Positions 4,853 through 56,839 of a stretch of 64,000 nucleotides of DNA are shown here, piece after piece. Position 1 is the first letter of the stretch, and every line of letters starts with the position of its first letter. Location of the stretch: assembly GCA_023053545.1 (NCBI GenBank), contig JAKZAN010000001.1:186001-250000 (forward strand). The letters are read 5' to 3'. Made by a program: the position numbers and the translations under genes. The notes beneath the pieces were generated by a model, which saw nothing but the letters and a program-made list of their open reading frames with translations, was not told the DNA's origin and ran no database searches. The stretch is from Lepidurus packardi (taxonomy: Eukaryota > Arthropoda > Branchiopoda > Notostraca > Triopsidae).

Positions 4853-7800
4853 TTACACAGGGAACCAAAACTCGTACACCCCTTCTTCTACGTACCTAAG
4901 GCGGTATTCTAGTTTTCGTTCTCTGAACACATACATAGCACGACATGCATTCTGCTTAGATAATTTATGCAGCGTTAACGAAGTATTAGATTCATTGTCA
5001 TTTGTTTTTCCTGGCCAATTTTCAGCCTTGTCTGCAATAGCATGGAATATACCAATAGTTTCACGGTCCCGAAAGGGACAAGATAAAGTTTGAAGCATAG
5101 GAACACTTAAAACTATTTTGAACAAATCCAAGACAAATTGATCGCTTTTCAAAGCTTCCTCATCACTGGAGGATAACGGAGTTGAAGGACCAGGACCTAT
5201 GGAGATCTTTGATAAATCAGATTTCTTAATTCCCAGGTAGACTTTCTTCATCCTCGGACAGCGTTGAAGGGCTTCTCGGATCGGATGCAGCATCAGAACT
5301 TCGCTGTTTTGCCAAAAGGTGCGTAATAATGACAGCTCTTCAATATTGTCTCCACTACTTCTGGTTAAGGCCTCCAACAACTGGTTGCCATAGAACAAAT
5401 AGTAATTGTTTGGAGTCATTCCACCGATTCTGCCGATGGCAAGGGTCCGCAGATTAGGTGCAGTTAGGTTCAACCAACTAAACAATTCGATTGGAAAACT
5501 GCATCCATCAAAGGTCAATTCCTCCAGGTTTAGTGCCAGATTTCTCCAAGCAAGGAGGAGCTCTTGGTTCTCATCAGCTGACGGAAGCAATCTATGAATC
5601 CCCAATGAAAAGTTCTCGAGATGAAGCCTTTTCAGACAGCATTTTTCCTTGACCGCGTACTTGCTGATTTCAGTAACCTGTAATACGAGTAAGAAGGAAT
5701 TTCTTCGTATAAACAAGGGTGAATTGTGATTGAATTATTCATGAAATGGGTGATGGCGCGAATATGAAAAGTTTTTGGGAAGTGCAGTTGTACAATTTTC
5801 TCACTCACGTCAAATTGGAAACTCATGTCTGAAAGCTTTAGCGTTTCAAGTTTACTGGCGAGCATCACTAGGTCTTCAAGCAGTACGCCTTTAGTTCCCT
5901 CGAGGTGCAGCGAAGTGAGACTGCACCCAGGCTCCGAAAGTCGTTTTAATTTTGGTTTCAACATACGACGACTAGAAAAACCTCGTTAGTTAATAGTTGT
6001 GATTACGTGGCTATTGTCCTTATACCTCATGCCCAGGTGTTGCAAGTGAGACAACCACTTCTCAGCCAATACTTCAGATAGTAGTGATGTATAATCAGAA
6101 TCTGCAATAAGAATTCAAAGAGTAAGTTGGAGTGTGTTGCTGCATCATCTTGGAGACGTCCACATGACATGACATAACGTCTGCGATCCAATAATTACAG
6201 CGCTCCCTCGTACTTACAATTTACATCGAACTCGAAACGCTTGAGACGGCAAGCTTCAGGAACCTCTTGCATGGCCTCGGTAATCGCCGTTTTTAAATCT
6301 AAGTATTAAAAATAGCCAAAATAAAATCCAGATATTTAATTTAACCTACCTTTTGAAGAGAACTGGAAGATAAAACAGCATTTACAATCCAGAAAGTTCA
6401 TTTAACATACCTTTATCAGTTGATTTGAAACTCAATTGAACAGGACAGGAAGCAGATTTAAGAAGCTCCTTAAGACTGTGAACTAATTCTTGTCGCATTT
6501 GGTCGCCAGTTATGTCGTAGTTTCCATCACATTCCAATTCATGAAGAACAACACCGGACTTGGACAAAGTCTGCAACACAACTGGTAAATTGTGTTCTAT
6601 AAAATCCACTTCCAAACTAATGGAAATGGGGCAATCCTTGGGTGATGCAAAGAGTGCGTTTGTTCTTCCAGTGTTCTTCTTGCCGAGCTCTTCAACCAGT
6701 TGAAGCAGAGTTAGGCTAGGCTCAACTGAGCTAACTGTGATTTCTGTCACATGTCTATCTGGTTCAGCTTGGGGGAACAGCTCGTTCGGCAGAGCATCTT
6801 TAAATTCGGACCAGGTACCAGCGGCACCATATTGGGTTAAATAATTTTTCATAAAGTATCTAAGACAGTCGGAAGGAAACTTAAAGACACGGAAAGCATC
6901 GACTAAACACTCGGAATTTCCCATTTCTATCATCGAAACCGCAACTTCATTGAAGCTGGCCTCTAGCCGATACAGGTCAAGTAAGTTCTGTTCCAAAAGA
7001 TTCCGGTCGGTTTCTCTACCAAGATAGTAGGCGGCTAGAAATTCTGCCGTGGTTCGATGAGGAACTTGGTAATGAGGAATCTTCTCTTTGGTGTCTTGGA
7101 TCAGAACCCCCGCCGCGATTAGTTGAGTAACTTTGACGTCGGTAGTTTCAGCCTTTGATTTGTTTCCCGTTATATCAAATAAGGTGAAGCTCATGCTGTT
7201 AGTTTTCAGACCGTCGATGCAAAGACGACCAAACTCTTGGAGGTAGCTTTCATGACCTTCTATGATCCGACTGTCGAGGACAGTCAAGTTCCAGAATTCT
7301 CCAGTTTGCTTCCTGGCTGCGCGGTAGAGGTTCCGGTTGATCATGGCAAAGTAAAGACCCGAAACAGTTGAAGGTAGTTTCCCATTCGGGCACTCGCTGA
7401 CTAAGCAGCACATCATGACGCAAAGCAGTGGACATTGAGCTAGTTCCTTGTAAGGACTCTCGTCTTCTACCTTCCGTAGGAATTGCTTGAATTGCTCCAG
7501 ACTGAGTCGTTGAGCTTCAGGCTCTAGTTCGTAAATTTCTTCAACATTTTTAAAATCATCGATTCTTGGTAGGTCATCCGACTTTCTGGAAAATAACATG
7601 TGTGGGAGATATAGTGTTCTCATGTTTAAAGTTTTAAGGTATCGTGGTTCCATGCAGCTTATAACATCGGCTTTGGTTAAGTGACCTGCCTTGATGAAGA
7701 ACTTGCCAACTGCCACTGCCACTTGTCTTTGTCCAAAGCCTTTCACTGTTACACGCAAGGGATTACCTTCGACATCATCGGACACATGTCTGCATCTCGA

Positions 7801-8676
7801 TGTGAGCACCACGTGGCACTTCATCATGTCTTCTTTCTTCATAATCCGATCTACCTCTTCCTTGGTCCTAGCATTGGCCTCATCGTACCCGTCAAGCAGA
7901 ATCAGGACCTTTTCTGCTTCACTCTCTAATACATCTTCTAGTAGCCATGTTTTTTTACCTTTCAGTTTCATCTTCTTTTTGTAGACTTTTTCCATGTAAC
8001 TCAAGATGTTTCCCTGTTGAAATTTAGGAACAAATAGAGCCTTGATGATCCACGTTTAAGTAGAGCGACTTACATCTTCACCAACGGAGCCCAGTTTTAC
8101 TATAAGCAGTAGACTAAAAGGACTGGTGTACTTGGTATGATCGTTTGAGTCGCTTTTAGACCAATCAGAAGCGATCTTAAGCATCAAGGTTGACTTTCCA
8201 TAGCCGGCGTCTCCTTCGATCAGAATGCGGTAACTACCCCCTTTCCGAAAATGTTTCTGAAATGGCCATCGAGTGCGCTAGATGAGTTTTAAGGAAATTA
8301 AAGTGCAATTCTTACCTGGCATTGTTCAAAAAGTTTTTCCACGCCAAACTTAGTTGAGTCTTCTAAGGTTAGCTCCGTGTATAATTCGTCGATGTCCCAA
8401 GTGTACTTGGGGTACCATGGCAGTGGAGACGCTTTGCACAAGGCAGTCGAATAGTACTCTTTCAAGCCTTTGCACTAGAAAAGCAAACGCGTACAGTTGT
8501 TGACATTGCTACTATCAATGAATTCGAGACTTTACTTCTAACTTATCGATGTCCACGGGTTGGTTTCCAACGTTAGTGACACCACCAATGCAAACATTTT
8601 CAGCACCATTGACGGTAACTGGACCACTGAAGGTATTAGTAGTGCTTTGTGTCCACATACGCGTCCACAACCACAT
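4853..8676 (-). CDS. NACHT-LRR (NLR-like) protein, copy 1
   Basis: Minus-strand gene of 8 exons: 8536-8676, 8316-8474, 8074-8256, 6411-8013, 6218-6298, 6026-6101, 5809-5971, 4853-5677. All introns are GT-AG, phases agree, and the product is about 1,076 residues with no internal stop. Start chosen: ATG at 8676, preceded in frame by a stop. Residues 13-40 carry the RHIM/amyloid-like motif (TFSGPVTVN, NVCIGGVTNVG). A helical linker (KEYYSTALCKASPLPW) follows, then Walker A GDAGYGKST (about 115-123), Walker B VLILLDGYDEAN (about 197-208), sensor HVVLTSRC, and winged-helix motif HRTTAEFLAAYYL (about 475-490). The C-terminus is a leucine-rich region (LTSLHLEG, LETLKLSD, LKRLHLEN, LEELTFDG, LRTLAIG). 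By family this is a signal-transducing STAND ATPase, probably an intracellular sensor. Ligand and partners are unknown. Copy 1 lacks the separate exon 1 and intron 1 found in copies 2 and 3. Confidence 0.85.
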
Positions 8677-8679
8677 CGT

Positions 8680-9927
8680 ATGTCACTTTACCGGTTGAAT
8701 TTTTCTAAGGGAAATGTTTGTTTTATACACGCATTCACAACACATAAACAAGGTAACTATCTGAAGCCCTGTCTGCCACGCCCTTTGTAGTTTACATTAA
8801 AAGCAGCAAACTGCGAACATCAGAGCCTTACTTTGCTCCAGGTGAGGCATTTTAGGTTAGAATAAGTTAGGCCATTCTTATGGTTATAAGTACCTTAAAC
8901 CGATGCAAAACATGGATAACACATGTAACTAACTGACTGACAATTTTCTATCTTTGCGTTGTTAAAGACGACAGGCGAAGTGGCACTGCATCGTCGTCTG
9001 CTGCATTGACGACAGGTGTCGCTGCCTATTCTACTCCGGCTGACTTTTTTCCGAACACGAATTGACACTATTATTTGGAGATGGGCGTGCTTAGGAAAGT
9101 GCATGTTAAAGAAAGGGGCGGAATTAAGACCGTCACCGAACATTTAAATAATACCGACTAGTCCTGTAACGCTATATATACCCCAATCACTTACCAAAAC
9201 TTGACTAAAATAAAGCCTGTAATAAACTGTGCTTTTTTATTAAACATAGTATTTCCGCTTTGCTTGCACGGGATAATTTCAAGCCAAAAGAAATGTCATA
9301 CGAAGATTGGTACACGTTCTTTTTAAACAACTTAATGTTCCCTTTCAATCATAGACATAATTTATATGGATGACAAAATCCATTTCAAGGTTATTATTAA
9401 GGTTATATGTGCTGAGTCAATATACAGATATTATGATAAAATATCTTGTTTGAAGTACGCTTATATTACTATACATAACATAATTTAAGAACTTAATATT
9501 ATTCACACAAAAGAGCGAAGTATGATTTCCACAAAAAGCAAGATAACATCAAGACCTGTAATAATTAATCGGACTTTATTATTTCACACTCCTTGGGTCA
9601 TTTCTTTTCCATGGTCTTGCTGGATTTAATCATCACAACAAGCGGTTGGTGCTTCAGATTAAGGTACTCAATCGTGTATCAACACTTACAACTCTTAAAA
9701 TACACTGGTTTCAATACTTAGAAGTTTTTCATAACATAACTTGTTTAAATTGGTTAAAACAAACGACAATCATAACCTAGTGATTACTAATTATTACGAA
9801 ACGTCAAAGCTCTTCAATAGGATTGGGTTCTATCACGACATGAGATTTTGAGAAATCAGGTACTCAGTTTTTCCAGCCATCAGGTGATTCGTTAACACAG
9901 AATTAAGGAACTGTTGGAGCCATTTCG
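8680..9927. other. Intergenic, upstream of NLR copy 1
   Basis: No gene supported. About 8680-9170 is shared with the region upstream of NLR copy 2 (27936-28330) and should contain the promoter side of the NLR gene. From about 9170 to 9927 the sequence is AT-rich and unique within the window. A TATATATA run at about 9172-9180 was seen, but nothing ties it to a transcript. Confidence 0.5.
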
Positions 9928-10881
9928 CTATGTCCCAAACTGGCCAGAACACAGACTTCCTATCTTGTCGGAAACGCATAAAAATTCAACTAAATGAGAA
10001 TTACGCTTAACAAAGAGGAGAGAAGAGAAAAGTTCTGGTTTAAGGCTCATTCTCTTAGCTGACAGAATGTCTGAAGCAGTACTAAATATGCGTTCCATGT
10101 TTGCGGTTGATGCTGGGACAGCAAACATATCCTTCGCGATTTCCGATAAAATAGGAAATCTGTATCCATTTGATTGCCAGTAGCGAAGCGGGCTAAATGA
10201 AAGGTCCACAGAAGAATTTTGGCTGACCTCTTGACTGACAGGTACTGGCTCGTTCAGGTCGGTGTCCAATTCGTTGTCTAGCTTCTCGGAGCCTTTAGAA
10301 GGCTTTCAACCACAGTACTAAAAAGCGGACGTATTTCACTGGTCTTTGGTTTCGGGTTGTTGGTGGCAGCAACGTCTGTCCCACTTGTTCCTTCCTTGGC
10401 TATGAAGAAAACAATCCCGTAACTATATATAGAGCTACTATTACGCAGGTTAAATTCTCTTACCAGCGAAAGGATGCCGAAATTCCAATTCCTGCTTCAC
10501 TAAATTGATCACTTCAGCTTGTGTCCGCCCAGACAAAGGAATCCATTTTTTCTTGAATCGAGGATCAAGCACGGTTCCTGAAACATAATCCACATCTGTC
10601 AAAAACAATCTCCATAGACTATTTTAATTAAATGATCTTACGTAAAAGGTATCATTAAGGACATATCCCAAACGTCGCTTTATGGATTCGTGAAATACTT
10701 GAGCCGTTTGACGGCAATAAAGTACCAACGTGCTGTCGGGGTTCACAGATGTATCCGAGGATGTTCTGTTAACCATATCCAAATACGCTGGTATGACTAG
10801 TCCAAGGGTTTCCGAATCCTTTTGAAAAGCATCGGTGGCAAGTTTAAAAGGTCCATGCAGAACTACAAGTTCTTTAAGCAT
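9928..10881 (-). mobile_element. hAT transposase fragment, copy A
   Basis: Minus-strand 3' half of an hAT-superfamily DNA transposase. The segment at 10642-10881 (PAYLDMVNRTSSD, YCRQTAQVFHESIKRRLG) is followed by an intron-like gap. Next is 10470-10595 (GTVLDPRFKKKWIPL, the conserved LDPRFK box), then 9928-10390 with the C-terminal dimerisation domain (PLRYWQSN, FAVPASTANMERIFSTA, SAKRMSLKPEL). The latter is the hallmark hATC motif. A one-base frame break near 10295 and an out-of-phase junction between the first two segments indicate decay. The N-terminal BED finger and catalytic start are absent. A nearly identical copy lacking the dimerisation domain lies at 28918-29614. Confidence 0.85.
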
Positions 10882-10937
10882 CTTGCAATGTAATGCTGCA
10901 AGTTGTCCGAGTTTCTTGCACGCATTCAGCTTGTTGT

Positions 10938-11043
10938 GGGTCTAAGGGTCTATCGGGTCTCTGATCGGGTCTCTGATTGGGTCTCTAATCGGGGCTCTGA
11001 TCGGATTAACAGACTTGCACTTCGATCGGGTCTCTGATCGGGT
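10938..11043. repeat. 13-bp minisatellite (GGGTCTCTGATCG), array 1
   Basis: Tandem variants of GGGTCTCTGATCG, ending in a conserved tail (TTAACAGACTTGCACTT followed by more units). Related arrays lie at 17480-17578 and 29668-29752. Each is preceded by a mobile-element end (hAT, BEL LTR, hAT) and followed by unrelated DNA. Here it joins a cuticular-protein coding fragment. Confidence 0.8.
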
Positions 11044-11272
11044 CAACTTGCCCGATGGCCGCACTCAAATCGTCAGCTACAAGGCTGACGACTACGGCAA
11101 CGTTGCTGACGTCAAGTACATTGGAGAAGCCAAGTACCCCGAAGAAAAACCCTACAGAACTGCCCCTCAATACGCTGCCCCCCAACACGATGCCCCAGCC
11201 TACAAGGCTCCCTCCTATGAAGCCCCCAAGACCTATGCCGCCCCTACCCCTATTTACAAACCAAAGTATTAA
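11042..11272 (+). pseudogene. Cuticular protein (Rebers-Riddiford type) C-terminal fragment
   Basis: Plus-strand open frame encoding the end of a chitin-binding R&R cuticular protein. It has the conserved VNLPDGRTQIVSYKADDYG block and KYIGEAKYPE, then a low-complexity tail of Ala-Pro-Tyr-Lys repeats (AYKAPSYEAPKTYAAP) ending at TAA 11270. Such proteins bind chitin in the arthropod exoskeleton. The signal peptide and first half of the domain are missing: the coding sequence emerges directly from the 13-bp minisatellite at 11042. It is therefore an orphan gene fragment, perhaps a last exon moved with a repeat. The short frame with a TTG start inside the minisatellite is not a plausible full gene. 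Confidence 0.8.
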
Positions 11273-12091: not shown

Positions 12092-12197
12092 TAGCCGGCC
12101 CTGTTGCGGACGTAAACAATTCAGTCTTCAGGCTCGGCTATCTCCAGCAAACAAAGCTTCGCCGACGGTCGAACATATTCTCCATGCTTCGTTTCGA

Positions 12198-14469: not shown

Positions 14470-14505
14470 ATTCGGGTCAACGCGGTCTTCAGCCGGGAAG
14501 GAAGC

Positions 14506-17166: not shown

Positions 17167-17179
17167 AATTACTTCAGAT

Positions 17180-17197: not shown

Positions 17198-17200
17198 AAA

Positions 17201-18411: not shown

Positions 18412-20320
18412 ATTCATATGTTCTCAAAGATTTAGAAGAGTTCGCAAGCTACGAAGTCACAGTAAAAGCCTTTAACGACGTCGGAATGTCCTTCGCCAGT
18501 CCAGTTGCCAAAGAACGCACCCGAGAAGGAGGTAAAAAACATTTCCTTTATCAAATCATTCATTAAAGCAACATTTCATTTACAAAAATGTTCAATATTT
18601 ATCATTAAGTTAAAGTTCCAAGCGCTGGGCCGAAATCCGTAAGAGCCAATGCAACCTCATCCACCACTGTCGTAGTGAGTTGGGACCAAATCCCCGAAAA
18701 CTTGCGAAATGGAGGGATTCTGGGCTACAAAGTCTACTATGGAGCTGCCAACTTCCGATTTAGGGTACTTTTAACCTTTTAAAATGCCTCTAAAGCACTA
18801 AAAACTGATTTTTTGAATTAGAATAAGGAAGTTCTGGGAAATACGACACTGACAACGACCTTAACAGAGCTCAAAAAGTGTACCAGTTACCAAATCCAAG
18901 TGCGAGCGTACACCAAAATGGGCGATGGCCCCCTCAGTACCGTTCCTGTGATCGCCCAAACCTGGGAAGATGGTAAATTCCTCAAATATTCAATAAAAAG
19001 AGTTCAGATCTCATCCAGTTGTCTTGAATGTTCATAGTTCCCGGCCCTCCTTCGAACGTTTCGTTCCCTGATGTCTCTCTAACGAGCGCTCGAGTCGTCT
19101 GGGACGTTCCAGATGAAGCTAACGGCCAAGTGTTGGCCTATCGCGTGGCGTACGTCATGGAAGGACGCAATGAGAAGCAATCCACAGACTTTACGCCCAT
19201 GGATCGCACCTACCGCGTCACCAACATGGATGCAGAGCAGTTTTATATCTTCCAAGTCTCGGCACAGACCAGTCAAGGTTGGGGACAAGTTGCTTTAGCT
19301 ACACTACGAATAGTCTACACTAGACACAATACAATAGTCTACACTACGAATAGCAGGGAAAGGCCCCAAGCGCCCTCTGCCCCCTTTATTAGCAGCTCGC
19401 AGATCTAAGCGAGGCAAATCACCTTCAATTGGACGCCTGGACGCGATGGTTATGCCCCTTGAAGGTGAAAAAATGACCAAAATTTCAATCGAAATGAAGT
19501 TTTCATTCGATTTTTTTATCATTTAAAGGTATTACACGGTGGAATATAGAGAAGGATTACAAGCACCGTGGGTAACTGCATCAGAACGTGCAGATCCAGC
19601 GCAAGCTTCGTATACGGTCCACGGTTTGAAGCCATTTACGAACTACCAAGTCCGTTTACGGGCGGTAAACGACATGGGTCCTTCGAATTGGTCGCCCAAT
19701 TCCGAGATCTTTCGCACTTTGTCGGCTCCGCCGGCATTGCTGGTACCTAACGTGAAAGTTGTACCCATAACGACCACGAGTGTGCGAGTTTCATGGACAA
19801 TCCTTAGCGAATCCGCTTGGAATGGAGATTCGGGTACTGGCATGTATCTGGTGGAGTACCGGCAGATGGGCGAGTTCCCTGTACTCTCCCAAAACAGCCA
19901 GAAGGAAGAAGTTATGGGAGTTAAGGTAGAAATCATTCCCAATTTTATTTACTATTTTATTTTATTTATTGTTTAATTAACTTTTAATAGGATTGTTTTC
20001 CTTTTTAGACATCGTATATAGTACTGGAAGGGCTTGTGAGGGATCACAACTACGAGGTGACAGTAACCGCAGCTAATTCACAAGGAAAAGGACCGCCTTC
20101 TCCACCAGCGACAGTATTTGTAGGCGAAGCAGTTCCTACGGGAGAACCGCGGAATCTGACGTTGGTTTCAACGTCGCCAACGGAATTAAGACTCACTTGG
20201 GCAGCTCCAGGGATAAACGAGCAAAATGGGGATCTTTTAGGGTACAAGGGCTTGTATTTGGCCCAAGGCGAAGGACTCGAAAAGGAGGAAATGGAGGTGG
20301 TACCAGCCTCTGCCACTTTG
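18412..20320 (+). pseudogene. sdk-like: Sidekick-like FN3 exon cluster, decayed and truncated
   Basis: Six plus-strand exons (about 18412-18531, 18616-18764, 18822-18972, 19038-19464, 19529-19925, 20009-20320) with mostly intact GT-AG borders. They encode consecutive fibronectin type III domains: YEVTVKAFNDVG, VVVSWDQIPEN, YQIQVRAYTKMGDGP, SARVVWDVPDEANG, ITFNWTPGRDGYAP, TNYQVRLRAVNDMGPS, YEVTVTAANSQGKGP. Pattern and wording match the FN3 array of Sidekick, a synaptic and tricellular-junction adhesion protein; I recall this family rather than having aligned it. Disablements are an in-frame TAA near 19407, a frame break near 19455, and a short tandem duplication near 19305-19350. The last exon stops at the block S breakpoint (20317). 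Ig domains, membrane span and cytoplasmic tail are absent. Confidence 0.75.
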
Positions 20321-22534
20321 GTGAGCTTTCTTCAATTCCGCGGTGTTTTCAAGCTTGTCTACCGAAGACGATGTCAAATTTGGAAGTCGAGCTAACTTTT
20401 TCGTTTCCCCCAAATAACTGTTATGACTCGTTTGTATAAGTTCCGACTAACTTTTTTCCCACTTCTGTGTTTGTTTTGTAGGACCTCCGTAATGGAGACT
20501 GCAGAAAGAGGGTGGAACGGAATCCTTTTGGGGCTGCGAAACTCGTCCAATGTCTCGAAGCGAAAAGATGTGAATAAGTTGACTTGGCCAACGACTCAAT
20601 CGTCTGGAACTTTAACTCTTTCTTGTCTTATTCACCGAGTGTTAACAAAAGGTACAAACGCCGAATACTCTAAATTGGAGCGTCTTTCATAGTGGTTAAT
20701 ACTGGTTGTTTTCTCTTTTCTTCTAGTTCTCGGAGCCAAAATGAAGCTACAAATGTGAAGCAAAGCATCATCCACTTTAGAAAAAGACGAAGATTCTTGT
20801 GAGCTGCCGTTGTTAAATTCACTAGTTTTGTCCATGGCGTTTATAACGAAAGGTAATGTGTTTTAATGATAAATGAACTCAATTTCCCGAAATTAATATC
20901 TGCTTGATTGTGTAGGCTATTGTTGGCTTGAGATGGAACTCCATTTGCGCTAATATTCCGTCTCGACAAATTTGTGAGCTGGTCCGACCATTTGGAAAGG
21001 TTCTTTGAAGGGTAAGTTGGTCCTTTGATAATATCACTCTAAAAGGAGTTTTCTGTAGTGGAAGTTTTTCATTCATTCGTAGGGTTTTCTCATTCCTCTT
21101 TGCTCTAGGCTTCCGTTTTTGAGCCCCTAGTGTTCTTTCCTCGCTATTTAGTAGCGCAGGCATTGCTAAAGAAGGTTATCCGTGCATCTATGGCGATTTC
21201 TCCAGCTGCAATACCGAAGATCGCCGTCATCATCAGCTCTTCCCTCAACCCTTGCCTTTGAACGCCGTCCGAGCTGATCCCGCTGATCGTCTTTACGTCG
21301 CCTTTGATTCGGATTCGCCCTTTCTTGTGATGGAACTAGGAAACCCAGAGGGCACCAGGTATGCTAGGAGGTTTGGTTGCGGTAAATCGCCTAAAGATTT
21401 GCTGCAGTTTAACCTTCTGGGGGGCAGAAAAGCTTCCGTTGCTCCATTATGCGTTAGGTCTTCGCGTATTAGGTCTTTAAATGGTAGCAACGGAGCTTGG
21501 GCGCCTAAACAACCATATCCGATAAGAGAACTCGGAGCTTGGGCGCCTTCTTTCTCCTTCGGCCGTACAAGCGAGACAATCAAAATGTACCAATTTCATT
21601 ATTAATGTGTTGTTGGGGTTGGGAACCTATAATGAGACATCGGTATTTACTTGAATACCTGATCCCCCCTTAAACCTCGTAAAGTATAGTTGCCTACTTC
21701 CAGCTTCCGCGCTTTTCTTTTCTGAGGTGTGGTCGATCTGCGAGAAAGAAGAGTTTGCGAAACACTTTGCAAAAGTTCAAGCGAGCTACAACTACAGACG
21801 AGCAAGGGGAATGAGGACAGGAAACGATTCTTAGACAGCAGGTAGAACAATTTATACGAGGAAGTAGCAGGTGGAAAGAATTGGAAAGGCCGTTCACTAA
21901 ATGGGAGTTTAACGAAATGTTAACAAGATTACCCAGCTCTAGCCAACGGAGGGACTTCACTACAAAATAATCAGTAACTTACCAAACAACTTCAGAGAAG
22001 CTTTGTATAACATCTAGAACCTGATACTAAGAGTAGGCCAAGTACCCAAAGAGTGGAAAAACGCAACGGTAATTCCGATATTAAAACAAGGGAAAAGCGC
22101 AGAAAAAGTTGAATCATATAGACCCATTGCTTTGCTCTCGTGTCTAGCGAAAATTTTTGAACGTTGACTAGTAAAAGGATTAAATTGGATAACTGAAACG
22201 TATAACATAATGTCAGTATATCAAACGGGGTTTCGACCAGGAAGAAGTACAATAGATCAACTAGTCAGAGTGAAGGAGGCTGAATCTATCCAGGCGGAAG
22301 ACTGTACAGCTATACTCCTACTAGATCTTTAACATGACTCGGTTTGGTCAAGCAAACTATTAGCAAAATTATTGGAAGGAGGCTTTAAAGGAAAAATATT
22401 ACAGATTGTGCAGGACTTGCTTACGAACAGGACAATGGAAGTCAGAATAGGTGCGACGACATCAAGAAAAGTAAATTTAAGTATACCACAGGGACCAGTT
22501 TTGAGTCCATGGCTCTTGAATAGTATGATTAGTG
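20317..22534. repeat. Duplicated block S, copy 1 (matches 44319-46554)
   Basis: Long stretch nearly identical to 44319-46554, from TTTGGTGAGCTTTC to the start of a break in a non-LTR RT (GATTAGTG). It contains mostly non-coding sequence (20320-21600), a hairpin-bearing repeat (about 21416-21505), a relic of an NLR exon 1 (about 21640-21745) and a non-LTR RT fragment. Differences from the partner are scattered substitutions and short indels. Confidence 0.85.
21640..21745 (-). pseudogene. Relic of NLR gene exon 1 / intron 1 / exon 2 start
   Basis: Minus strand: the end of NLR exon 1 (reading HTSEKKSAEAG), its GTAGGC donor, the roughly 71-bp intron ending TCTCATTATAG, and the first bases of the next exon. 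This matches 27770-27880 and 56725-56830. The rest of the gene is gone: the upstream side is replaced by non-LTR ORF2 and the downstream side by unrelated DNA. It marks a lost NLR paralog. Confidence 0.7.
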
Positions 22535-24123: not shown

Positions 24124-27100
24124 TTACACCGGGAACCAAAGCTCGTACACCCTTTCTTCTACGTACCTAAGGCGGTATTCTAGTTTTCGTTCTCTGAACA
24201 CATACATAGCACGACATGCATTCTGCTTAGATAAGTTATGCAGCGTTAACGAAGCTTCATAGTCGTTTGTTTTTCCTGGCCATTTTTCAGCCTTGTCTGC
24301 AATAGCATGGAATATACCAATTGTTTCACGGTCCCAAAAGGAAAACAATACAGATTGAAGCATAGGAACACTTAAAACTATTTTGAACAAAGCCAAGTAC
24401 ATATTACTGCTTTTCAAAGCTTCCTCATCAATGGAAGATAGTGGACTTGAAGGACCAGGACCTATGGAGATCTTTGATAAATCAGATTCATGAATGTACA
24501 GGTTGACTCTCTTCATCCTCGGACAGCGTTGAAGGGCTTCTCGGATCGGATGCAGCATCAGAACTTCGCTGTTTGGCCCAAAGTTGTATCCTAATGACAA
24601 GTCTTCAATATTGTCTCCACTACTTCCGGTTAAGGCCTCCAACAACTGGATGGCATAGGACTCCCTGTCATTGTTTGGAGTCTTTCCATAGATTTCGCCG
24701 ATGGAAAGGGTCCGCAGATTAGGTGCAGTTAGGTTCAACCAACTAAACAATTCGATTGGAAATTTGCATCCATCGATGGTCAATTCCTCCAGGTTTAGTG
24801 CCAGATTTCTCCAAGCAAGGAGGAGCTCTTGGTTCTCATCAGCTGACGGAAGCAATCCATCAAGCTCCAATGAAACGACCACAAGATGAAGCCTTTTCAG
24901 ACAGCATTTTTCCTTGACCGCGTACTTGCTGATGTCAGTAACCTGTAATACGAGTAAGAAGGAATTTCTTCGTATAAACAAGGGTGAATTGTTATTGAAT
25001 TATTCATGAAATGGGCGATGAAAAGTTTTTGGGAAGTGCAGTTGTACAATTTTCTCACTCACGTCAAATTGGAAACTCATGTCTGAAAGCTTTAGCGTTT
25101 CAAGTTTACTGGCCAGCATCACTAGGTCTTCAAGCAGTACGCCTTTAGTTAACTTGAGGTGCAGCGAAGTGAGACTGCACCCAGGCTCCGAAAGTCGTTT
25201 TAATATTGGGTTCAACACACCATAACTAGAAAAACTTCGTTAGTTAATAGTTCTGATTACGTGGCTATTGTCCTTATACTGTAAGCTCAGGTGTTGCAAG
25301 TGAGACAACCACTTCTCAGACAAGACTTCCAATAGTAGTGATATATCATCATAATAATCTGCAATAAGAATTTAAAGAGTAAGTTGTAGTGTGTTGCTGC
25401 ATCATCTTGGAGACGTCCACATGACATGACATCAACGTCTGCGATCCAATAATTACAGCGCTCCCTCGTACTTACACCTTAGATCGAACTCGAAACGCTT
25501 GAGACGGCAAGCTTCAGGAACCTCTTGCATGGCCTCGGTCACGGCCAGTATTGAATCTAAGTATTAAAAATAGCCAAAATAAAATCCAGATATTTAATTT
25601 AACCTACCTTCTAATTCGAATGTGAATGTCAATTGAACAGGACAGGAAGCAGATGTAAGAAGCTCCTGAAGACTGTGAGCTAATTCTTGTCGCGTTATGT
25701 TGTATCTTCCATTACATTGCAATCTATGAAGAACAACACCGGACTTGGACAAAGTCTGCAACACAACTGGAAAATTGTCTGACATAAAACCCCCTTTAAA
25801 AAAAATGGAAATGCGGCAATCCTTTGGTGATGCAAAGAGTGCGTTTGTTCTTCCAGTGTTCTTCTTGCCGAGCTCTTCAACCAGTTGAAGCAGAGTTAGG
25901 CTATGCTCAACTGAGCTAACTCCGAGATATCCCTCTTCTTCTGTATGTTCGAGGTATAGCTCGTTCGGCAGAGCATCATTAAATTCGGACCAGGTTCTAG
26001 CGGCACCATATTGGGTGAAACAATTTTTCATAAAGGTGAGAAGACAGTCGTGAGGAAACTTAATGTCACGGAAAGCGTGGACTAAACACCTCCACTTTCC
26101 CATTTCCATCAGGGAAACCGTAACTTCATCGAAGCTGGCCTCTAGCCGATACAGGTCAAGTAAGTTCTGTTCCAAAAGATCCGGGTCGGTTTCTCTACCA
26201 AGATAGTAGGCGGCTAGAAATTCTGCCATGGTTCGATGAGGAACTTGGTAATGAGGAATCTTCTCTTTGGTGTCTTGGATCAGAACCCCCGCCGCGATTA
26301 GTTGAGTAACTTTGACGTCGGTAGTTTGAGCCTTTGATTTGTTTCCCGTTATATCAAATAAGGTGAAGCTCATGCTTTTAGTTTTCAGACCGTCGATGCA
26401 AAGACTACCAAACTCTTGGAGGTAGCTTTCATGACCTTCGCTGATCCGACTGTCGAGGACACTCAAGTTCCAGAATTCTCCAGTTTGCTTCCTGGCTGCG
26501 CGGTAGAGGTTCCGGTTGATCATGGCAAAGTAAAGACCCGAAAGAGTTGAAGGTAGTTTCCCATTCGGGCACTCGCTGACTAAGCAGCACATCATGACGC
26601 AAAGCAGTGGACATTGAGCTAGTTGATTGTAAGGACTCTCGTATTCTACCTTCCACAGGAATTGCTTGAATTGCTCCAGACTGAGTCGTTGAGCTTCAGG
26701 CTCTAGTTCGTAAATTTCTTCAACATTTTTAAAGTCATCGATACTAGGTAGGATCGAGTCATGCAGTTCGCTATCGGAATCCGACACTCCGAGCGGTCTA
26801 TCGAAATAATTTATCACATCGGCTTTGGTTAAGTGACCTGCCTTGATGAAGAACTTGACAACTGCCACTGCCACTTGTCTTTGTCCAAAGCCTTTCACTC
26901 TTACAAGCAAGGCTTTACCTTTGACATCATCGGGCACATGTCTGCATCTCGATGTGAGCACCACGTGGCACTTGCTCATGTCTTCTTTCTTCATTACCCG
27001 ACCTACCTTTTCCTTGGTCTTAGCATTCGCCTCATCGTACCCGTCAAGCAGAATCAGAACTTCTGCTCCTTTACTTTTTAGTACATCCTTTACTTCCATT

Positions 27101-27935
27101 CCTATCTTCTCGTCGTAGATTGATTCCATGTAACTCAAGATGTTTCCCTGGTTGAAATTTGGGAACAAATAGAGCCTTGATGATCCATGTTTAAGTAGAC
27201 TTACATCTTCACCAACGGAGCCCAGTTTTACTACAAACAGTAGACTAAAATCACTGGTGTACTTGTTTGAGTCGCTTTTAGACCAATCAGAAGCGATCTT
27301 AAGCATCAAGGTTGACTTTCCATAGCCGGCGTCTCCTTCGATCAGAATGCGGTAACTACCCCCTTTCCGAAAATGTTTCTGAAAGTGCCATCGAGTGCGC
27401 TAGATGAGTTTTAAGAAAATTAAAGTGTAATTCTTACCTGACATTGTTCAAAAAGTTTTTCCACGCCAAACTTTGTTGAGTTTTGTAAGGCTAGCTCCGT
27501 ATAGACTTCGTCGATGTCCCAAGTGTGCTCGGGGTACCATGGCAGTGGAGAAGCTTTGCACAAGGCAGTCGAATAGTACTCTTTCAAGTCTTCGCACTAG
27601 AAAAGCAAACGCGTACAGTTTTTGACATTGCTACTATCAATGAATTCGAGCCTTTACTTCTAACTTATTCATGTCCGCGGGTTGGTTTCCAAGGTTAGCG
27701 ACACCACCAATGCAAACATTTTCAGCACGATTGACGGTAACTGGACCATTGAAGGTATTAGTAATGCTTTGTTGGGAACCTATAATGAGACATCGGTATT
27801 TAATTTTAACCCCTCATACCCCTTAAACCTTGTAAAGTATGGTTGCCTACTTCCAGCTTCTGAGCTTTTCTTTTCTGAGGTGTGGTCCATCGTGCCAGTA
27901 TTCTCCTCCACTTTCGATCTCTTTGACGGCCACAT
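24124..27935 (-). CDS. NACHT-LRR (NLR-like) protein, copy 2
   Basis: Minus-strand gene of 9 exons: 27851-27935, 27658-27779, 27438-27596, 27205-27378, 25608-27147, 25476-25556, 25280-25358, 25063-25225, 24124-24942. Phases agree throughout and the product is about 1,073 residues. Start: ATG at 27935 (MWPSKRSKVEENTGTMDHTS), with an in-frame stop upstream. The RHIM/amyloid-like segment is at about 37-60 (TFNGPVTVN, NVCIGGVANLG). Walker A GDAGYGKST, Walker B VLILLDGYDEAN, sensor HVVLTSRC and HRTMAEFLAAYYL follow, then LRRs (LTSLHLKL, LETLKLSD, LEELTIDG, LRTLSIG). Compared with copies 1 and 3 it lacks three residues after SDSN and has an unrelated segment (RPLGVSDSDSELHDS) after the LTKADVI helix. 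The intron at 27148-27204 is 57 bp and stop-free in frame. Role is by family: STAND ATPase, likely immune sensor. Confidence 0.87.
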
Positions 27936-37100: not shown

Positions 37101-37148
37101 TCCGCCGAGTTACCGACGTAACTTAGCATGTCCAGGATTTACCAGGCC

Positions 37149-48429: not shown

Positions 48430-50641
48430 TTTCTGATAGCAATGTTCTTACTTGTTTTTCGGAGAAAGGTTCTACCCACTGAGCTCCAAAAACGGTTGAC
48501 CCACTACAGGTTCGAGTCACCGGATTGCTGCTTTCATCAAGGCAAATCTGGGGAGGTGTGACGTCAAGCTTGGTTGGACTCTTTGACCAACTCCCCCAGC
48601 CCAGAAGTACGACGCACTCCTTTCCAGGGAACACCGATCCGCTGCGAAGAATTGTGCCCCACTCAAAGTGCCGTCTCTAGTACGGTTTACGAAGAAACTG
48701 ATAGCTTCCAGTGTGTTCCTTATAAAAGGCGACTGCTTAGTGGAACTGCCACTCAGGAGTGCGTTGAGTGACTCGATCTCCGTCTCGTAGCAAGTCATAT
48801 TTTCCAGGTCTCTGCCCTTGAAAGTTTCACTTAACATGGAGACAGTGATAAGCAAATCAGAACCATTCTGTTCATACGAAATGTCTTTGCCCACAAGGTA
48901 AACGCTCGAAGCATAGACAAGTCTTAGGTCGAAGGTTCTCGGGTCATTGTTCATCTCCATTACGAGCTATAACTATAAAAGGCCTAAAATCAATTTTCTG
49001 CATCTATCTTTAGTAAGAAAATACCTTTCTTAGCGGCTGATCGTAGTCTAAAGATGAAGTAGGAAAAGCCGCGTTGCGAACCCGAATGAGCAAGCCCAGT
49101 TTGCCCATAGATAGCGTAGCTACTTGAATCTCTTGCGAACGGTTACCGTAGCAGGACCCCAAGTACCTTACTTGACATGCGTTTTTGGGTGAATTCTCAT
49201 CCATTCTCAGCACAGGAATGGTCTAAAAGTGCAGAGAAACTTGGTAACTGAAATACATGTTTGCTTATAGACTCGCGTATAGCTCAGCTTGTTACACCCA
49301 AGCTACAACTACAAGGAGGCTGCATTTCAATTTACATGTCTCAATTCAGTGAAGACAGAAATTAAAAACTGTTGCGTCTTGCGTATGAACATTGCACATA
49401 TTACTGCACGTAAAAAATGACGCCTGAGTTAAGCTATACCCAGCCTTATTACCCAGTTGGTTTTACCGTGCTGTAGTCGCCAGGTTTGCTTCCAAATTCG
49501 TCTCCGTCTCCGTATGCGCCGTCTAGTATCCAGACGCTGGTGAAAGGCCTGTCTTTCCGGTCGTCGTATGCGTCTTTAAATTTGGCTGCGCAGCGAAGAA
49601 GTTCAGTCCCTGGATCCGGCCCGTCTATTTTTTGAATCTCAATGTCGATTACTTGTTTCAGAGGCAGCCCTTGTAACGTAAGAGAAAGTTATTAGTATTA
49701 CGAGGAAACTGCTTCAACATTTGACTTAGTTTCTGCTGTGTTTCATTGAAGCTATGTTCTGATGTGATACAGCTGAATGGGAGTTCAATACTGCATGCAT
49801 AACCCTGAGTTTGCTTGATATCTACAAAAAGTTCAGAAAGCCCAGTGTAAAACCCAGCGGCGAAGCAGTGCCCCCCCTTGGCTACGTGACGGAGAACTCG
49901 TTTCCCCATAATACACGACTAAATGTTGTGTGTAATTAGTAAACATTTGGAGCATTTGGATACATTTGAGATGACTACCATTTGAATACCAACTTTCGCT
50001 GAAAAAATGCCGTCTGCCGGCCTCCCAATAGTAAGAGGTCCGAATCGTCACATTGGGTTTCTTCATAACCAGACTTCTGTCCTATACCTTTTTAGTTGTA
50101 AACTAGGTACGGAATGAAACTTCGGTCGTACCCAAAGAACATAATTAGACGGCAGCATTCCACCTAACTCACTACAGCTCTCGGAAACATCAGCCAGTTC
50201 TTTCGTCTTGATGATAGATAGATGCAATACTCCACGCCAGCTTTGCCATGCCACTGATCTTCTGGCCTGTCGAAAAGTGGTATCGCGTCAAGTTCCCTCG
50301 GCAATTGACTAACCTTGGTCTTGGGGGTAATCTGGGTCGATCGAATGGGTTAGCAAGGTAACGGGACGAAAGCTTGTTGTGAATCCTTCCTAAATCGAAG
50401 AGGCCCTTTTATATCTTTTCAAATGACTTCCTCTGTTGATTTCAGGGTCGTGTCTTGAACACTTTTTTACCTTTGCTGGTCTTGGCATTGAAACCGATGA
50501 TGGACCTTTCGTTTCTGATCCCACATGCTGTCTCAAATGGAAGGCCGTGAATAGTAGAAAATAGGAGCAACTATGGAAATTGATTATTCCATTTCCAACT
50601 ACTTGGAAACAAACTGAACTACGCTTATGAAACCTACGCAC
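48430..50641 (-). CDS. Ectodomain-type gene, copy C (lectin-like plus HormR-like)
   Basis: Minus-strand exon series. About 50440-50620 is a leader-like exon (CSYFLLFTAFHL). About 49990-50330 holds ELADVSESCSELGGMLPSNY and a Trp/Ser-rich stretch. About 49463-49910 includes IDIEIQKIDGPDPGTELLRC. About 49020-49225 has IPVLRMDENSPKNACQVRYL and MGKLGLLIRVRNAAF. About 48450-48965 has DLRLVYASSVYLVGKDISYE, then, after a frame break near 48600, a Cys/Trp-rich module (QICLDESSNPVTRTC, GAQWVEP). That last pattern (C...P-V-T-R-x-C...GA-x-W) resembles the hormone-receptor (HormR) motif of adhesion-type GPCR ectodomains. No seven-helix region was found. It looks secreted or truncated; frame breaks make functionality doubtful. 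The gene is co-duplicated with NLR copies 1 and 3. Confidence 0.45.
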
Positions 50642-50644
50642 TGA

Positions 50645-51784
50645 GTTTGGACTTTCTTACTAATTTCCTTTCCCGAAACTGTCACCAAAGGCAACACAAC
50701 GCTCCAAAAGAAATAGAACAAAATAGCGACCAGTCTTTTTTTTCCTGACGAAATAAAATGGTTCATTTTTTTTTCTAATCTTCTGCTTTTATCTAATCTT
50801 CTGGTTCTAATTTTCGGTTTGATTTATGGAATTGGTAGCAATCCAGTATTCGTTTTCAAAGGAGGTAAAACGAACAGGAAAATGGTCAGAGTCTTTTCTG
50901 CAAAGTAGAAACACGAAATACTGATCAGAAAACATTACCTAAAGCTGGGGTTCCAAGGAATCTAGATAACTAGTCCTTGGTATCCGCTTATGTTGTTACT
51001 AACTTTAATGAACACACAACGCAGCCTTCGTGCTGTAAGGAACTTAGACTGTATTGGAGTAACGTGAAAGGAAGACGCGGCTTAGCGACTTACGCTACAA
51101 ACAAAAGGGTACGAGGGGCAAAAAAGGGGTGGTACAACAAAAACTGAAACTCCCAACGTTTCCGAATTTCGGACTCAATACATCAGCTTATATTGCCTAT
51201 GTGGGCATCAGGGCGATGAGTACGGAACCGATGAACTAAACTGGCGAAAGTATCTTGGAACTGGTGCATCTCATTGGTCTTGCCATATTTCTTCATACAA
51301 AGTTTGTTGACGATTCTTTAAACGGTTGTAAATGTGGAGTTATTTTCTATAAGACGGCACAAAAAACGAAAATCGGATTTTTACCATCCACCAATTGTCT
51401 ATGACTCTTGTCTTGTCATACACTTACTTTTTAAGAAAAAGCAGATAAAAAGATGGATTTTAGAATTCAAATCTCTTTCAAATTGCCTACGATTATCTAG
51501 AATTGAATTATAGCTGGAAAAAGGAGCCAGGAAAGATACTAGCGCCGTCTCTTTTCAGGCCATAAAACTAGATTGTGTTATGGTCTGTCTTTTGGAAACA
51601 ATTGGACAATTGAAGTATCTTTTGAAAATATAACGTTTAATAAAATCAATTCAGCGGTTTTATCACTCCAATTGACTGACTGTAACCCTAAACATGTTCA
51701 ATAACCTTTGTCTTTTTCGGAAATTGCACGCGACTTTTTTAAATTCAATTTTTACTTTATTTTTTACTGTGCATCGAATTCTGC
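50645..51784. repeat. Non-coding part of duplicated block (matches about 2600-3754)
   Basis: Near-identical to the segment left of NLR copy 1. No coding potential recognised. Confidence 0.7.
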
Positions 51785-52398
51785 ATTTGTCCGTGGCGAA
51801 AGTTGTGAAAAGTTTGGGGGATCACTTTCGACAAGGAACTACAATTTAAACAGCACATGGAAAAGATGAGAGAAAGGGGAATGAAAGCTACCTTAATACT
51901 TCAAAAATTGGCAGGGACAAGCTGGGGAGCAAATATTAAAACGCTTAATAAGGGACTAGTAAGCGCAAAATTAGAATACGCGGCACTTGTTTTTAAAGAC
52001 GCCAATGAGATCATGTTAAAACGCGTAGAAACCATACTAAACAGAGCACTAGGAATAATTCTCGGGGCAATGAAAACCACGCCCATATCTGTGTCACTGT
52101 GCTCAACGGGACTAACACCACTCAGAGATAGGTGGGAAGAACTGGCTTAAGGTATCGCAACAGAATGATGGAACGTCCTTATGAAGACGAGGTAGTATTC
52201 AGAGTCCTCGATCACAGGGAAAAAAGAATACATGCACAAATGAGTACATGGATAGAAGCCTACCAACTCCCGGAAAGAAAAGCAGGAAATTTCTATGAGA
52301 AAACAATCGCCCCATGGGATTTTGATGTAACAGGTCTAACTTCCGGCGAAGACATCTATAACCTGTTCAGGGGATATGTGAGGACTGCTTTGTATTGA
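51785..52398 (+). mobile_element. Non-LTR retrotransposon ORF2 C-terminal fragment, copy 3
   Basis: Best preserved of the three tails: ILQKLAGTSWGANIK, GLVSAKLEYAALVFKDANEI, LNRALGIILGAMKTTP, STGLTPLRDRWEELA; then, after one frame break at about 52145, RYRNRMMERPYEDEVVFRVL and FDVTGLTSGEDIYNLFRGYV to a stop at 52398. It gives the natural C-terminus of the element. Confidence 0.85.
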
Positions 52399-53003
52399 AA
52401 GGAGAGCTAATCCTGTAAGTCTTTCCTCCGCAGTGGAGTTTCTTAGCCAAGTTTTCAGTCTTAGAATGGAAAAACTCCTTTAAGCGGTAGCGGTGCCAAG
52501 TGGCCATAACCGTACGTAGAACAGAAACATGAAATGAGAATGAAAATGAAAGTATAAAAACCCTTCAATGAGTCCTGTGAGGTAATGTAAACCTGCAGTG
52601 AGCATCGAAATGCTGCTTGTAAGCGGTTCCGAGAGTGAAATTCCGTTTAAATACGCTATAATTACAAACGAAATGGCTGAAAGTAGCAGAGCGATACTAC
52701 AATAACATTTGATTAGCAGTACTTACCTACTAAGGCTGCAGCGGACGGGTTAACTATACAGCTTTCTTATTCGCAAAATAAACTAAGAAGGAAGATGTTT
52801 GCCTCGAGGGAATTTGAGACCATAGAAAACCGTTGGAACGTACTAGAATGCTTTGGCGTTGTATTAATGAAAAAAGTAGAATGGGGTACTTAAAGGGCGG
52901 AATTTCTTATTGGCATACATCCACTAGGCACTAGGGTATACTTCTGTTGATTAATTGCTTTCGAAATTGCTATTGGATCTTTCAACAGAATTAAATACGC
53001 AAT
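52399..53003. other. Spacer between non-LTR tail and NLR copy 3
   Basis: No gene supported; shared with 4442-4852 and 23581-24123. Probably the NLR 3' flank. Confidence 0.5.
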
Positions 53004-56000
53004 TTACACAGGGAACCAAAGCTCGTACACCTCATGTTCTACGTACCTAAGGCGGTATTCTAGTTTTCGTTCTCTGAACACATGCATAGCATGACATGCA
53101 TTCTGATTAGATAAGCCATGCAGCGTTAACGAAGTATTAGATTCATTGTCGTTTGTTTTTCCTGGCCAATTTTTAGCCTCGTCTGCAATAGCATGGAATA
53201 TACCATTTGTTTTATGGTCCCAAAAGTCACAAGATAAAGTTTGAAGCGTACGAACACTTAAAACTATTTTGAACAAAGCCAAGACAATATTACTGCTTTT
53301 CAAAGCTTCCTCATCACTGGAGGATAATGGAGTTGAAGGACCAGGACCTATGGAGATCTTTGATAAATCAGATATCTTAATTCCCAGTTCGACTTTCTTC
53401 ATCCTCGGACAGCGTTGAAGGGCTTCTCGGATCGGATGCAGCATCAGAACTTCGCTGTTTGGCCAAAAGTTGTATCCTAATGACAACTCTTCAATATTGT
53501 CTCCACTACTTCCGGTTAAGGCCTCCAACGACTGGTTGCCATAGAACTCCTCGTCATTGTTTGTCTTTCCATAGATTCCGCCGATGGCAAGGGTCCGCAG
53601 ATTAGGTGCAGTTAGGTTAAACCAACTAAACAATTCGATTGGAAATTTGCACCAATCGATGGTCAATTCCTCCAGGTTTAGTGCCAGATTTCTCCAAGCA
53701 AGGAGGAGCTCTTGGTTCTCATCAGCTGACGGAAGCAATCCAACAAGCTCCAATGAAACGAACTCGAGATGAAGCCTTTTCAGACAGCATTTTTCCTTTG
53801 CCGCGTACTTGCTGATTTCAGTAACCTGTAATACGAGTAAGAAGGAATTTCTTCGTATAAACAAGGGTGAATTGTGATTGAATTATTCATGAAATGGGCG
53901 ATGAAAAGTTTTTGGGAAGTGCAGTTGTACAATTATCTCACTCACGTCAAATCGGAAACTCATGTCTGAAAGCTTTAGCGTTTCAAGTTTACTGGCGAGC
54001 ATCACTAGGTCTTCAAGCAGTACGCCTTTATTTAAGTTGAGGTACAGCGAAGTGAGACTGCACCCAGGCTCCGAAAGTCGTTTTAATATTGGGTTCAACG
54101 CACAACGACTAGAAAAACCTCGTTAGTTAATAGTTCTGATTACGTGGCTATTGTCCTTATACTCCAAGCGAAGGTGCTGTAAGTGAGACAACCACTTCTC
54201 AGCCAAGACTTCCGATAGTAGTGTTGTAACACCTCCATCCCCTGCAATAAGAATTCAAAGAGTAAGTTGGAGTGTGTTGCTGCATCATCTTGGAGACGTC
54301 CACATGACATGACATCAACGTCTGCGATCCAATAATTACAGCGCTCCCTCGTACTTACACTGTAGATGGAACTCGAAACGCTTGAGACGGCAAGTTTCAG
54401 GAACCTCTTGTATGGCCTCGGTCAGGGCCGATATAAAATCTAAGTATTAAAAATAGCCAAAATAAAATCCAGATATTTAATTTAACCTACCTTCTGGAGC
54501 TCTATAGAATCTCAATTGAACAGGACAGGAAGCAGATTTAAGAAGCTCCTGAAAACTGTGAACTAATTCTTGTCGCGTTGGGTCGCCAGTTATGTCGTAT
54601 CCTACTTCACATTCCAATGTATGAAGAACAACACCGGACTTGGACAAAGTCTGGAACACAACTGAAAAATTGTGTGCCTTAAAGCCCCCTCTCACAAAAA
54701 TGGAAATGGGGCAATCCTTTGGTGATGATAAGAGTGCGTTTGTTCTTCCAGTGTTCTTCTTGCCGAGCTCTTCAATCAGTTGAAGCAGAGTTAGGCTAGG
54801 CTCAACTGAGCTAACTCTGAGATATCCCCCTGTATGTTGGAGGTCCAGCTCGTTCGGCAGAGCATCTTTAAATTCGGACCAGGTTCTAGCGGCACCATTT
54901 TGGGTGAAATAATTTTTCATAAAGTACTTAAGACAGTCCAGAGGAAACTTAATGTCACGGAAAGCGTGGACTAAACACCTCCACTTTCCCATTTCCTTCA
55001 GGGAAACCGTAACTTCATCGAAGCTGGCCTCTAGCCGATACAGGTCAAGTAAGTTCTGTTCCAAAAGATCCGGGTCGGTTTCTCTACCAAGATAGTAGGC
55101 GGCTAGAAATTCTGCCGTGGTTCGATGAGGAACTTGGTAATGAGGAATCTTCTCTTTGGTGTCTTGGATCAGAACACCTGCCGCGATTAGTTGAGTAACT
55201 TTGACGTCGGTATTTTGAGCCTTTGATTTGTTTCCCGTTATATCAAATAAGGTGAAGCTCATGCTTTTAGTTTTCAGACCGTTGACGCAAAGACGACCAA
55301 ACTCTTGGAGGTAGCCTTCGTGACCTTCATGAATCTGACTGTCGAGGCCACTCCAGTTCCACATGTAAACGTCTTCTCCAGCAGCTCTGGCTTTCTTTAT
55401 GTATGCGCGGTACAGGTTCCTGTTGATCATGGCAAAGTAAAGACCCGAAACAGTTGAAGGTAGTTTCCCATTCGGGCACTCGCTGACTAAGCAGCACATC
55501 ATTACGCAAAGCAGTGGACATTGAGCTAGTTCCTTGTAAGGACTCTTGACTAGTACCTTCCGTAGGAATTGCTTGAATTGCTCCAGACTGAGTGGTTCAG
55601 CTCCAGTTTGTCGTGGGTCCTTTTCTTGAACATTTTTAAAATCATCGATACTTGGTAGATCATCCAACTTTTGGGAAAATCTCGTGTGTAGGTAATATAG
55701 TGTTATCATGTTTAAACTTTCCAGTGTTTCACTGCAGCTTATAACATCGGCTTTGGTTAAGTGACCTGCCTTGATGAAGAACTTGCCAACTGCCTCTGCC
55801 ACTTGTCTTTGTCCAAAGCCTTCAACTGTTACAAGCTGGGCATTACCTTTGACATCATCGGGCACATGTCTGCATCTCGATGTGAGCACCACGTGGCACT
55901 GCATCATGTCTTCTTTCTTCATAATCCCATCTACCCCTTCCTTGGTCTTAGCATTGGCCTCGTCGTACCCGTCCAGCAGAATCAGGACCTTTTCTGCTTC

Positions 56001-56839
56001 ACTCTCTAATACATCTTCTAGTAGCCATGTTTTTTTACCTTTCAGTTTCATCTTCTTTTTGTAGACTTTTTCCATGTAACTCAAGATGTTTCCCTGGTTG
56101 AAATTTAGGAACAAATAGAGCCTTGATGATACATGTTTAAGTAGACTTACATCTTCACCAACGGAGCCCAGTTTTACTATAAGCAGTAGACTAAAAGGAC
56201 TGGTGTACTTGGTATGATCGTTTGAGTCGCTTTTAGACCAATCAGAAGCGATCTTAAGCATCAAGGTTGACTTTCCATATCCGGCGTCTCCTTCAATCAG
56301 AATGCGGTAACTACCCCCTTTCCGAAAATGTTTCTGAAAGTGCCATCGAGTGCGCTAGATGAGTTTTAAGAAAATTAAAGTGTAATTCTTACCTGACATT
56401 GTTCAAAAAGTTTTTCCACACCAAACTTTGTTGAGTTTTGTAAGGCTAGCTCCGTATAGACTTCGTCGATGTACCAAGTGTGCTTGGGGTACCATGGCAG
56501 TGGAGAAGCTTTGCACAAGGCAGTCGAATAGTACTCTTTCAAGTCTTTGCACTAGAAAAGCAAACGCATACAGTTGTTGACATTGCTACTATCAATGAAT
56601 TCGAGCCTTTACTTCTAACTTATTCATGTCCACGGGTTGGTTTCCAACGTTAGCGACACCACCAATGCAAACATTTTCAGCACGATTGACGGTAACTGGA
56701 CCATTGAAGGTATTAGTAGTGCTTTGTTGGGAACCTATAATGAGACATCGGTATTTAATTTTAACCCCTCATACCCTTTAAACCTTGTAACGTATAGTTG
56801 CCTACTTCCAGCTTCCGAGCTTTTCTTATCCGAGTCCAT
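53004..56839 (-). CDS. NACHT-LRR (NLR-like) protein, copy 3
   Basis: Minus-strand gene of 9 exons: 56806-56839, 56613-56734, 56393-56551, 56151-56333, 54491-56093, 54359-54439, 54163-54241, 53946-54108, 53004-53825. Phases agree; product about 1,081 residues without internal stops. Start: ATG at 56839 (MDSDKKSSEAG), first ATG after an in-frame TAA; the upstream part of the copy 2 leader is closed off here. RHIM/amyloid-like segment (TFNGPVTVN, NVCIGGVANVG) at about 20-43. Linker KEYYSTALCKASPLPW. Walker A GDAGYGKST, Walker B VLILLDGYDEAN, sensor HVVLTSRC, HRTTAEFLAAYYL. LRR region: LTSLYLNL, LETLKLSD, LKRLHLEF, LEELTIDW, LRTLAIG, ending FPV. Divergent patches are ETLESLNMITLYYLHTRFSQ and the KKARAAGEDVYMWNW insertion. 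The 57-bp intron at 56094-56150 is in frame and stop-free. Confidence 0.87.

Follow-up and report, generated by a model that had tools for sequence, protein, structure and literature searches.

How do arthropod NLRs without a recognisable effector domain detect their ligands, and how might they signal? The question is raised by three NACHT-LRR genes on a 64,000-nucleotide stretch of contig C1 of the notostracan Lepidurus packardi (C1:186001-250000, hereafter the window; genome of 108.6 Mb in 344 contigs). These genes are real, intact, of NLR type and under diversifying selection. Each reads as one open frame after predicted splicing, with GT..AG introns and no internal stops (Table 1). An initial annotation of the window had described three intact spliced genes of eight or nine exons with identical Walker motifs, and the models bear this out: copies 2 and 3 have the nine exons of the family gene plan, copy 1 is left with eight, having no exon 1 and an in-frame ATG joined to exon 2 as its start, and both GDAGYGKST and LLDGYDEAN are found in all three. 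For copy 2 the annotated 3' limit holds, while the start moves from 27935 to 27890, 45 nt further downstream.

Intron 4 of this plan sits inside NACHT, between Walker A and Walker B. It is bounded by GT..AG in all 21 aligned copies and measures 57 nt in 19 of them, 58 nt in one and 60 nt in window copy 1. Once it is taken out, the NACHT score climbs in the two copies tested, from 58.1 to 65.5 bits in copy 3 and from 61.1 to 69.3 bits in copy 2. Because its length is a multiple of three and it is stop-free in most copies, a plain list of open reading frames reads across it. The splicing of copy 1 first proposed across this region is confirmed; an eight-exon model that kept the stretch as coding was dropped, and the reading of copy 1 as a pseudogene with a frameshift between the two Walker motifs is ruled out, since the 57-60 nt stretch is an intron. 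Judged by eye, L001, a divergent paralogue, shares an intron at this position.

The three genes belong to a much larger set. The first 305 kb of C1 hold 16 copies (16 NACHT matches), 15 of them on the same strand, so that the cluster first called small is not small, with more copies elsewhere. Twelve of the 16 have complete open frames and two are open as far as the sequence was examined (c283802 and c299501); of the other two, c252448 has a frameshift and c89396 is truncated. The proteins of 11 complete array copies are 75-85% identical to one another. Genome-wide, the last exon gives 81 matches, 27 of which are stop-free and at least 240 of 272 residues long. Copy number is uncertain because two copies, at 22.6 and 116.5 kb, do not differ in coding sequence and lie within a 25 kb duplication at 99.55% identity, and because the small contigs C17 and C18 carry further copies, the one on C18 scoring the same as a copy on C1. 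Because the first bases of the contig (C1:1-30) already belong to the 3' end of an NLR gene, the array may continue past the assembly. The genes belong to a large, crustacean-like and probably lineage-specific family amplified in tandem.

The assignment to NLRs comes from the NACHT and winged-helix region. Stretches holding both Walker motifs match Pfam NACHT with E-values of 1e-13 to 5e-19 (the Pfam domain scan, the first protein search and the single-sequence PDB search used an older model with 19 extra residues as query). A profile built from two array proteins and four animal homologues matched 41 PDB sequences, 39 named NLRC4, NLRP, NLR1 or NAIP and two named only 'Uncharacterized protein', and many matches extend over about 380-475 profile positions. 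By this search the region is nearer to NLRs than to other STAND families, and the profile placement of the ATPase, suggested with the initial annotation as a check, comes out as NLR-type. Mammalian NLRC4, NLRP3 and NAIP share this region by profile homology, with an LRR behind it, and differ in their CARD, PYD or BIR. The N-terminal effector domain of NLRs is variable and often missing in invertebrates. No N-terminal CARD, PYD, Death or BIR domain was matched here in Pfam at an E-value of 10, and such a domain is not treated as a requirement because NACHT-LRR genes without one are classed as NLRC (PMC11508797). A 2024 survey reports that arthropod NLRs have no N-terminal effector domain.

At the C-terminus, a structure model of moderate confidence for the last exon of copy 3 indicates an LRR-like fold, its matches being mostly LRR proteins, including NAIP, NLRC4, NLRP1 and NLRP3 entries. 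Variable sites, i.e., those with four or more residue types, concentrate 6-10 residues after LxxLxL (28 of 77 positions versus 21 of 352 elsewhere, Fisher p=3e-11, the offset having been picked post hoc from the variability track), and none of 428 circular shifts reached the observed clustering. Pooled over 11 complete copies, with gap-adjacent codons masked and 888 of 1116 codons kept, the ratio of nonsynonymous to synonymous divergence (dN/dS) clearly departs from 1 only in the linker (2.36, with dN not exceeding dS in 1 of 2000 bootstraps) and the LRR (1.68, 0 of 2000). Exon 3 has a ratio of 0.47, the NACHT core 0.74 and the winged-helix part 0.91; exons 1-2 give about 1.3, which is not significant, and the three window copies alone give 1.91 for the LRR. 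In codon models, compared with a null for which up to seven fixed kappa values were tried on the free tree and the best one kept, omega reaches 2.82 (p=6e-18) in the LRR and 2.93 (p=2e-6) in the linker, and is 0.91 (p=0.41) in NACHT plus winged helix. The paralogue comparison proposed with the initial annotation therefore yields LRR values above 1 rather than near it. The mean distances of the introns lie between 0.020 and 0.133, and those of introns 6-8, which lie between LRR exons (0.020-0.045), are smaller than the masked LRR dN of 0.111. Gene conversion would distort the tree test, yet alone would not put changes behind LRR strands. That the receptor is an NLR under diversifying selection is in our view highly probable.

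The kind of receptor is known. The initial statement that such genes are poorly documented in non-insect arthropods is not borne out: publications on shrimp describe LvNLRC and NLRP-like genes (PMC12370184), and NCBI has a named relative from Artemia franciscana. As a type, the receptor is therefore not new. LvNLRC, compared here by its published description, is likewise a crustacean NACHT-LRR protein without a recognised N-terminal domain, and differs in its length of 1485 amino acids. The Artemia protein ('NACHT, LRR and PYD domains-containing protein 4-like', P0008) shares the pre-NACHT LPW segment, NACHT and an N-terminal VNIG, and is only 29% identical across the 45% of the query that aligns. 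Together with a barnacle protein it stands among the best relatives in the matches listed; in each of the three protein searches, scoring was limited to the candidates with the most words in common (8000, 7999 and 8000), and the third is represented by the best 120 of 424 matches. What is new is the array, and the unexpected part is its N-terminal variant.

This variant, which the initial annotation does not mention, is a short [VI]-x-[VI]-G motif encoded in exon 2, e.g., GPVTVNRAENVCIGGVANVGN, and present in 14 of the 16 array copies, including versions that differ elsewhere (IANINNCKNVSVGSFNNVGN and GPIYVHGADGVSVGGNVNIEG). The divergent paralogue L001 carries DVQIHGADTVIIGNHN, and L005 and L034, as putative readings, carry QVTISHSTVHIG and QVNISHSTVHIG; the SIYSEGGSVNIGNNFEMHG of L004 is weak because it is one of three matches over three frames. 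No [VI]x[VI]G motif is present in L002 or in the exon region of L032. Among 26 relatives (P0001-P0026) the motif stands ahead of the P-loop in six, namely an acorn worm protein (P0001, VIVAGAGSTVTIG), the Artemia protein (VEAVKSRVNIGHQ), the barnacle protein (P0011, HVQNSNHVHVG), and P0016, P0024 and P0026, whose matches look like chance. An alignment of 11 chosen motif peptides has Gly as its sole invariant position, with the first Val shared by 10 of them. Three observations may be added. In c133979 (C1:133979) and c252448 (C1:252448) the apparent start ATG lies downstream of the motif (MAGDLDKFK...), so that these would be motif-less receptors. The 5' ends of L034 (C1:13.87 Mb) and L005 (C4:1.47 Mb) seem to hold a second, putative motif-like stretch, RVLNVGGNIGN, beside ..VHIG. 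L002 (C1:6689023) is a different NACHT gene with an open frame of 1281 amino acids and no motif in 1500 upstream bases.

The motif recalls the RHIM, whose core is G-(I,V)-Q-(I,V)-G (PMC7885112). The cryptic RHIMs of the arthropod proteins PGRP-LC and PGRP-LE also have no conserved Gln (PMC9496462), a likeness drawn from description, and these proteins differ from those of the array in not being NLRs; in this genome a search for PGRPs (Amidase_2) gave one match, on contig C344. In vertebrate RIPK3, natural tetrad variants retain much function, though not all do (PMC12119088). Some fungal NLRs with amyloid motifs, including the RHIM-like PP motif, trigger cell death through amyloid templating (PMC7885112, PMC12881547). 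One of these, PNT1 with its effector HELLP (PMC7885112), resembles the array proteins in being an NLR with a short motif similar to G-(I,V)-Q-(I,V)-G; it differs in that the PP core keeps Gln, in its NB-ARC and TPR domains, and in its adjacent effector gene, no such partner having been identified here. No convincing motif-bearing adaptor was seen among the 7 Death-domain loci scanned, and no report of a RHIM-like motif in arthropod NLRs was found in the literature searched, to which subscription papers and preprints mostly do not belong.

The best explanation, which we consider moderately probable as a whole, is a working and diversifying NLR family with a pathogen-sensing LRR and RHIM-like signalling driven by the motif. 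The three genes would encode working cytosolic NLRs laid out as N-terminal motif, NACHT, winged-helix region and LRR, in which each copy may use its LRR face to bind a ligand of its own that changes fast and most likely comes from a pathogen. By homology with NLRs of the NLRC4/NLRP3 type, binding would release the NACHT ATPase and lead to oligomerisation, and the clustered N-termini could then nucleate a short RHIM-like beta or amyloid assembly through [VI]-x-[VI]-G, handing the signal on to a downstream partner whose own motif matches. An immune role for the ligand is probable, and a signalling role for the motif is a tentative proposal. More tentative by a shade is its extension, in which crustacean and acorn worm NLRs deemed effector-less signal through an N-terminal cryptic-RHIM amyloid motif, linking the PP-motif NLRs of fungi, PGRP-LC/IMD of insects and RIPK of vertebrates, and here radiated into a fast-evolving tandem array. 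The array endows one arthropod with a family of intracellular receptors that diversifies rapidly and bears the clear marks of a recognition arms race. The motif, if it acts in this way, offers a concrete answer, testable at low cost, to the question of how arthropod NLRs lacking death-fold domains could signal.

Several results weigh against this explanation. The Gln of the RHIM tetrad [VI]-Q-[VI]-G is absent from all 11 motif peptides, in which the rest of the tetrad is present except for one with Leu first. Pfam RHIM (PF12721) does not match the array N-termini, its two sub-threshold matches in the whole genome both lie outside NLR loci, and a PDB search with a motif profile matched no RHIM (a single motif peptide matched nothing at an E-value of 10). 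Two array copies are without the motif, as are 20 of the 26 relatives, including amphioxus, sea cucumber and starfish. Outside the N-terminus, the Pfam domain scan gave no LRR match, and a PDB search with one array protein as single sequence returned no NLR. In favour of the motif stand the probabilities on shuffling of an extended pattern, defined post hoc, which are 0.008 (array copy 2), 0.051 (L001), 0.010 (acorn worm), 0.010 (Artemia) and 0.027 (barnacle), in five proteins picked for bearing the motif; because they are a chosen set, we slightly lowered our estimate for the motif as a signalling device. Since the PF12721 and PDB profile searches both miss it, the motif is not filed as a RHIM, and amyloid signalling is offered as a testable hypothesis, not as a result.

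The same negative searches, and the absence of the motif from two copies and many relatives, would suit a family in which the motif is only a beta-rich linker and NACHT itself signals, as proposed for shrimp LvNLRC, whose NACHT binds STING (PMC12370184). This is a serious contender, which we place just short of an even chance, and it must account for the recurrence of the motif in acorn worm, barnacle, Artemia and several exon-2 versions here amid differing surrounding residues, and for its occurrence not above chance in 116 control NLRs, mostly fish proteins from the best 120 of 424 matches (extended pattern in 2 versus 3.9 expected, short pattern in 7 versus 12.3 expected).

The remaining alternatives concern the receptor rather than its motif. 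An omega above 1 suits any recognition arms race and one fungal NLR has been exapted for allorecognition (PMC7885112), so the family might serve self/non-self, gamete or developmental recognition instead of defence; the description of the published shrimp NLR as antiviral (PMC12370184) speaks for defence, and we judge this reading unlikely. That the copies are recent pseudogenes adrift, or assembly duplicates, is suggested by the coding-identical pair and by the frameshifted and truncated copies, and is made very improbable by the 12 complete frames and by dN significantly above dS in linker and LRR. Least credible of all is a non-NLR STAND ATPase of the nephrocystin-3, NB-ARC or TEP1-like kind: Pfam gives weak NPHP3_N and NB-ARC matches, but NACHT scores far higher, an LRR-like C-terminus is present, and nearly all PDB profile matches are NLRs or NAIP, though the profile held animal NLR homologues.

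Table 1. Features of the window, with positions counted from its first nucleotide
Feature	Position	Strand	Details
NLR gene copy 1	4853..8676	-	8 exons: 8536-8676, 8316-8474, 8074-8256, 6411-8013, 6218-6298, 6026-6101, 5809-5971, 4853-5677; 1076 amino acids, predicted splicing
NLR gene copy 2	24124..27890	-	9 exons: 27851-27890, 27658-27779, 27438-27596, 27205-27378, 25608-27147, 25476-25556, 25280-25358, 25063-25225, 24124-24942; 1058 amino acids, predicted splicing
NLR gene copy 3	53004..56839	-	9 exons: 56806-56839, 56613-56734, 56393-56551, 56151-56333, 54491-56093, 54359-54439, 54163-54241, 53946-54108, 53004-53825; 1081 amino acids, predicted splicing
Intron 4, copy 1	8014-8073	-	60 nt, contains a stop; splice-site alignment
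Intron 4, copy 2	27148-27204	-	splice-site alignment
Intron 4, copy 3	56094..56150	-	57 nt, within NACHT; splice-site alignment and NACHT score
Walker A GDAGYGKST, copy 3	56265..56291	-	position derived by hand
Walker B LLDGYDEAN, copy 3	55953..55979	-	position derived by hand
RHIM-like tetrad VCIG, copy 1, exon 2	8584..8595	-	position derived by hand
RHIM-like tetrad VCIG, copy 2, exon 2	27706..27717	-	position derived by hand
RHIM-like tetrad VCIG, copy 3, exon 2	56661..56672	-	within GPVTVNRAENVCIGGVANVGNQ; position derived by hand
Last exon of copy 3, LRR-like fold	53004..53825	-	structure model, mean predicted local distance difference test score (pLDDT) 65.7
Fibronectin type III exon-like fragments	19028-20392	+	one with DSCAM-type similarity
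hAT transposase dimerisation fragment	9931-10305	-	

Elsewhere in the genome, C4:11318307-11330081 holds a CARD (11329143-11329382) and, some 460 bp from it, a Death domain (11329845-11330081). Both lie less than 12 kb from the last exons of two NLR genes (11318307 and 11323567), and are possibly a RAIDD-like adaptor gene beside an NLR pair. Many COX1 fragments on C2, C4, C1, C6 and other contigs contain in-frame TGA and resemble mitochondrial DNA copied into the nucleus; the small contigs C52, C214 and C43 carry three COX1 frames without interruption, which may be bacterial.

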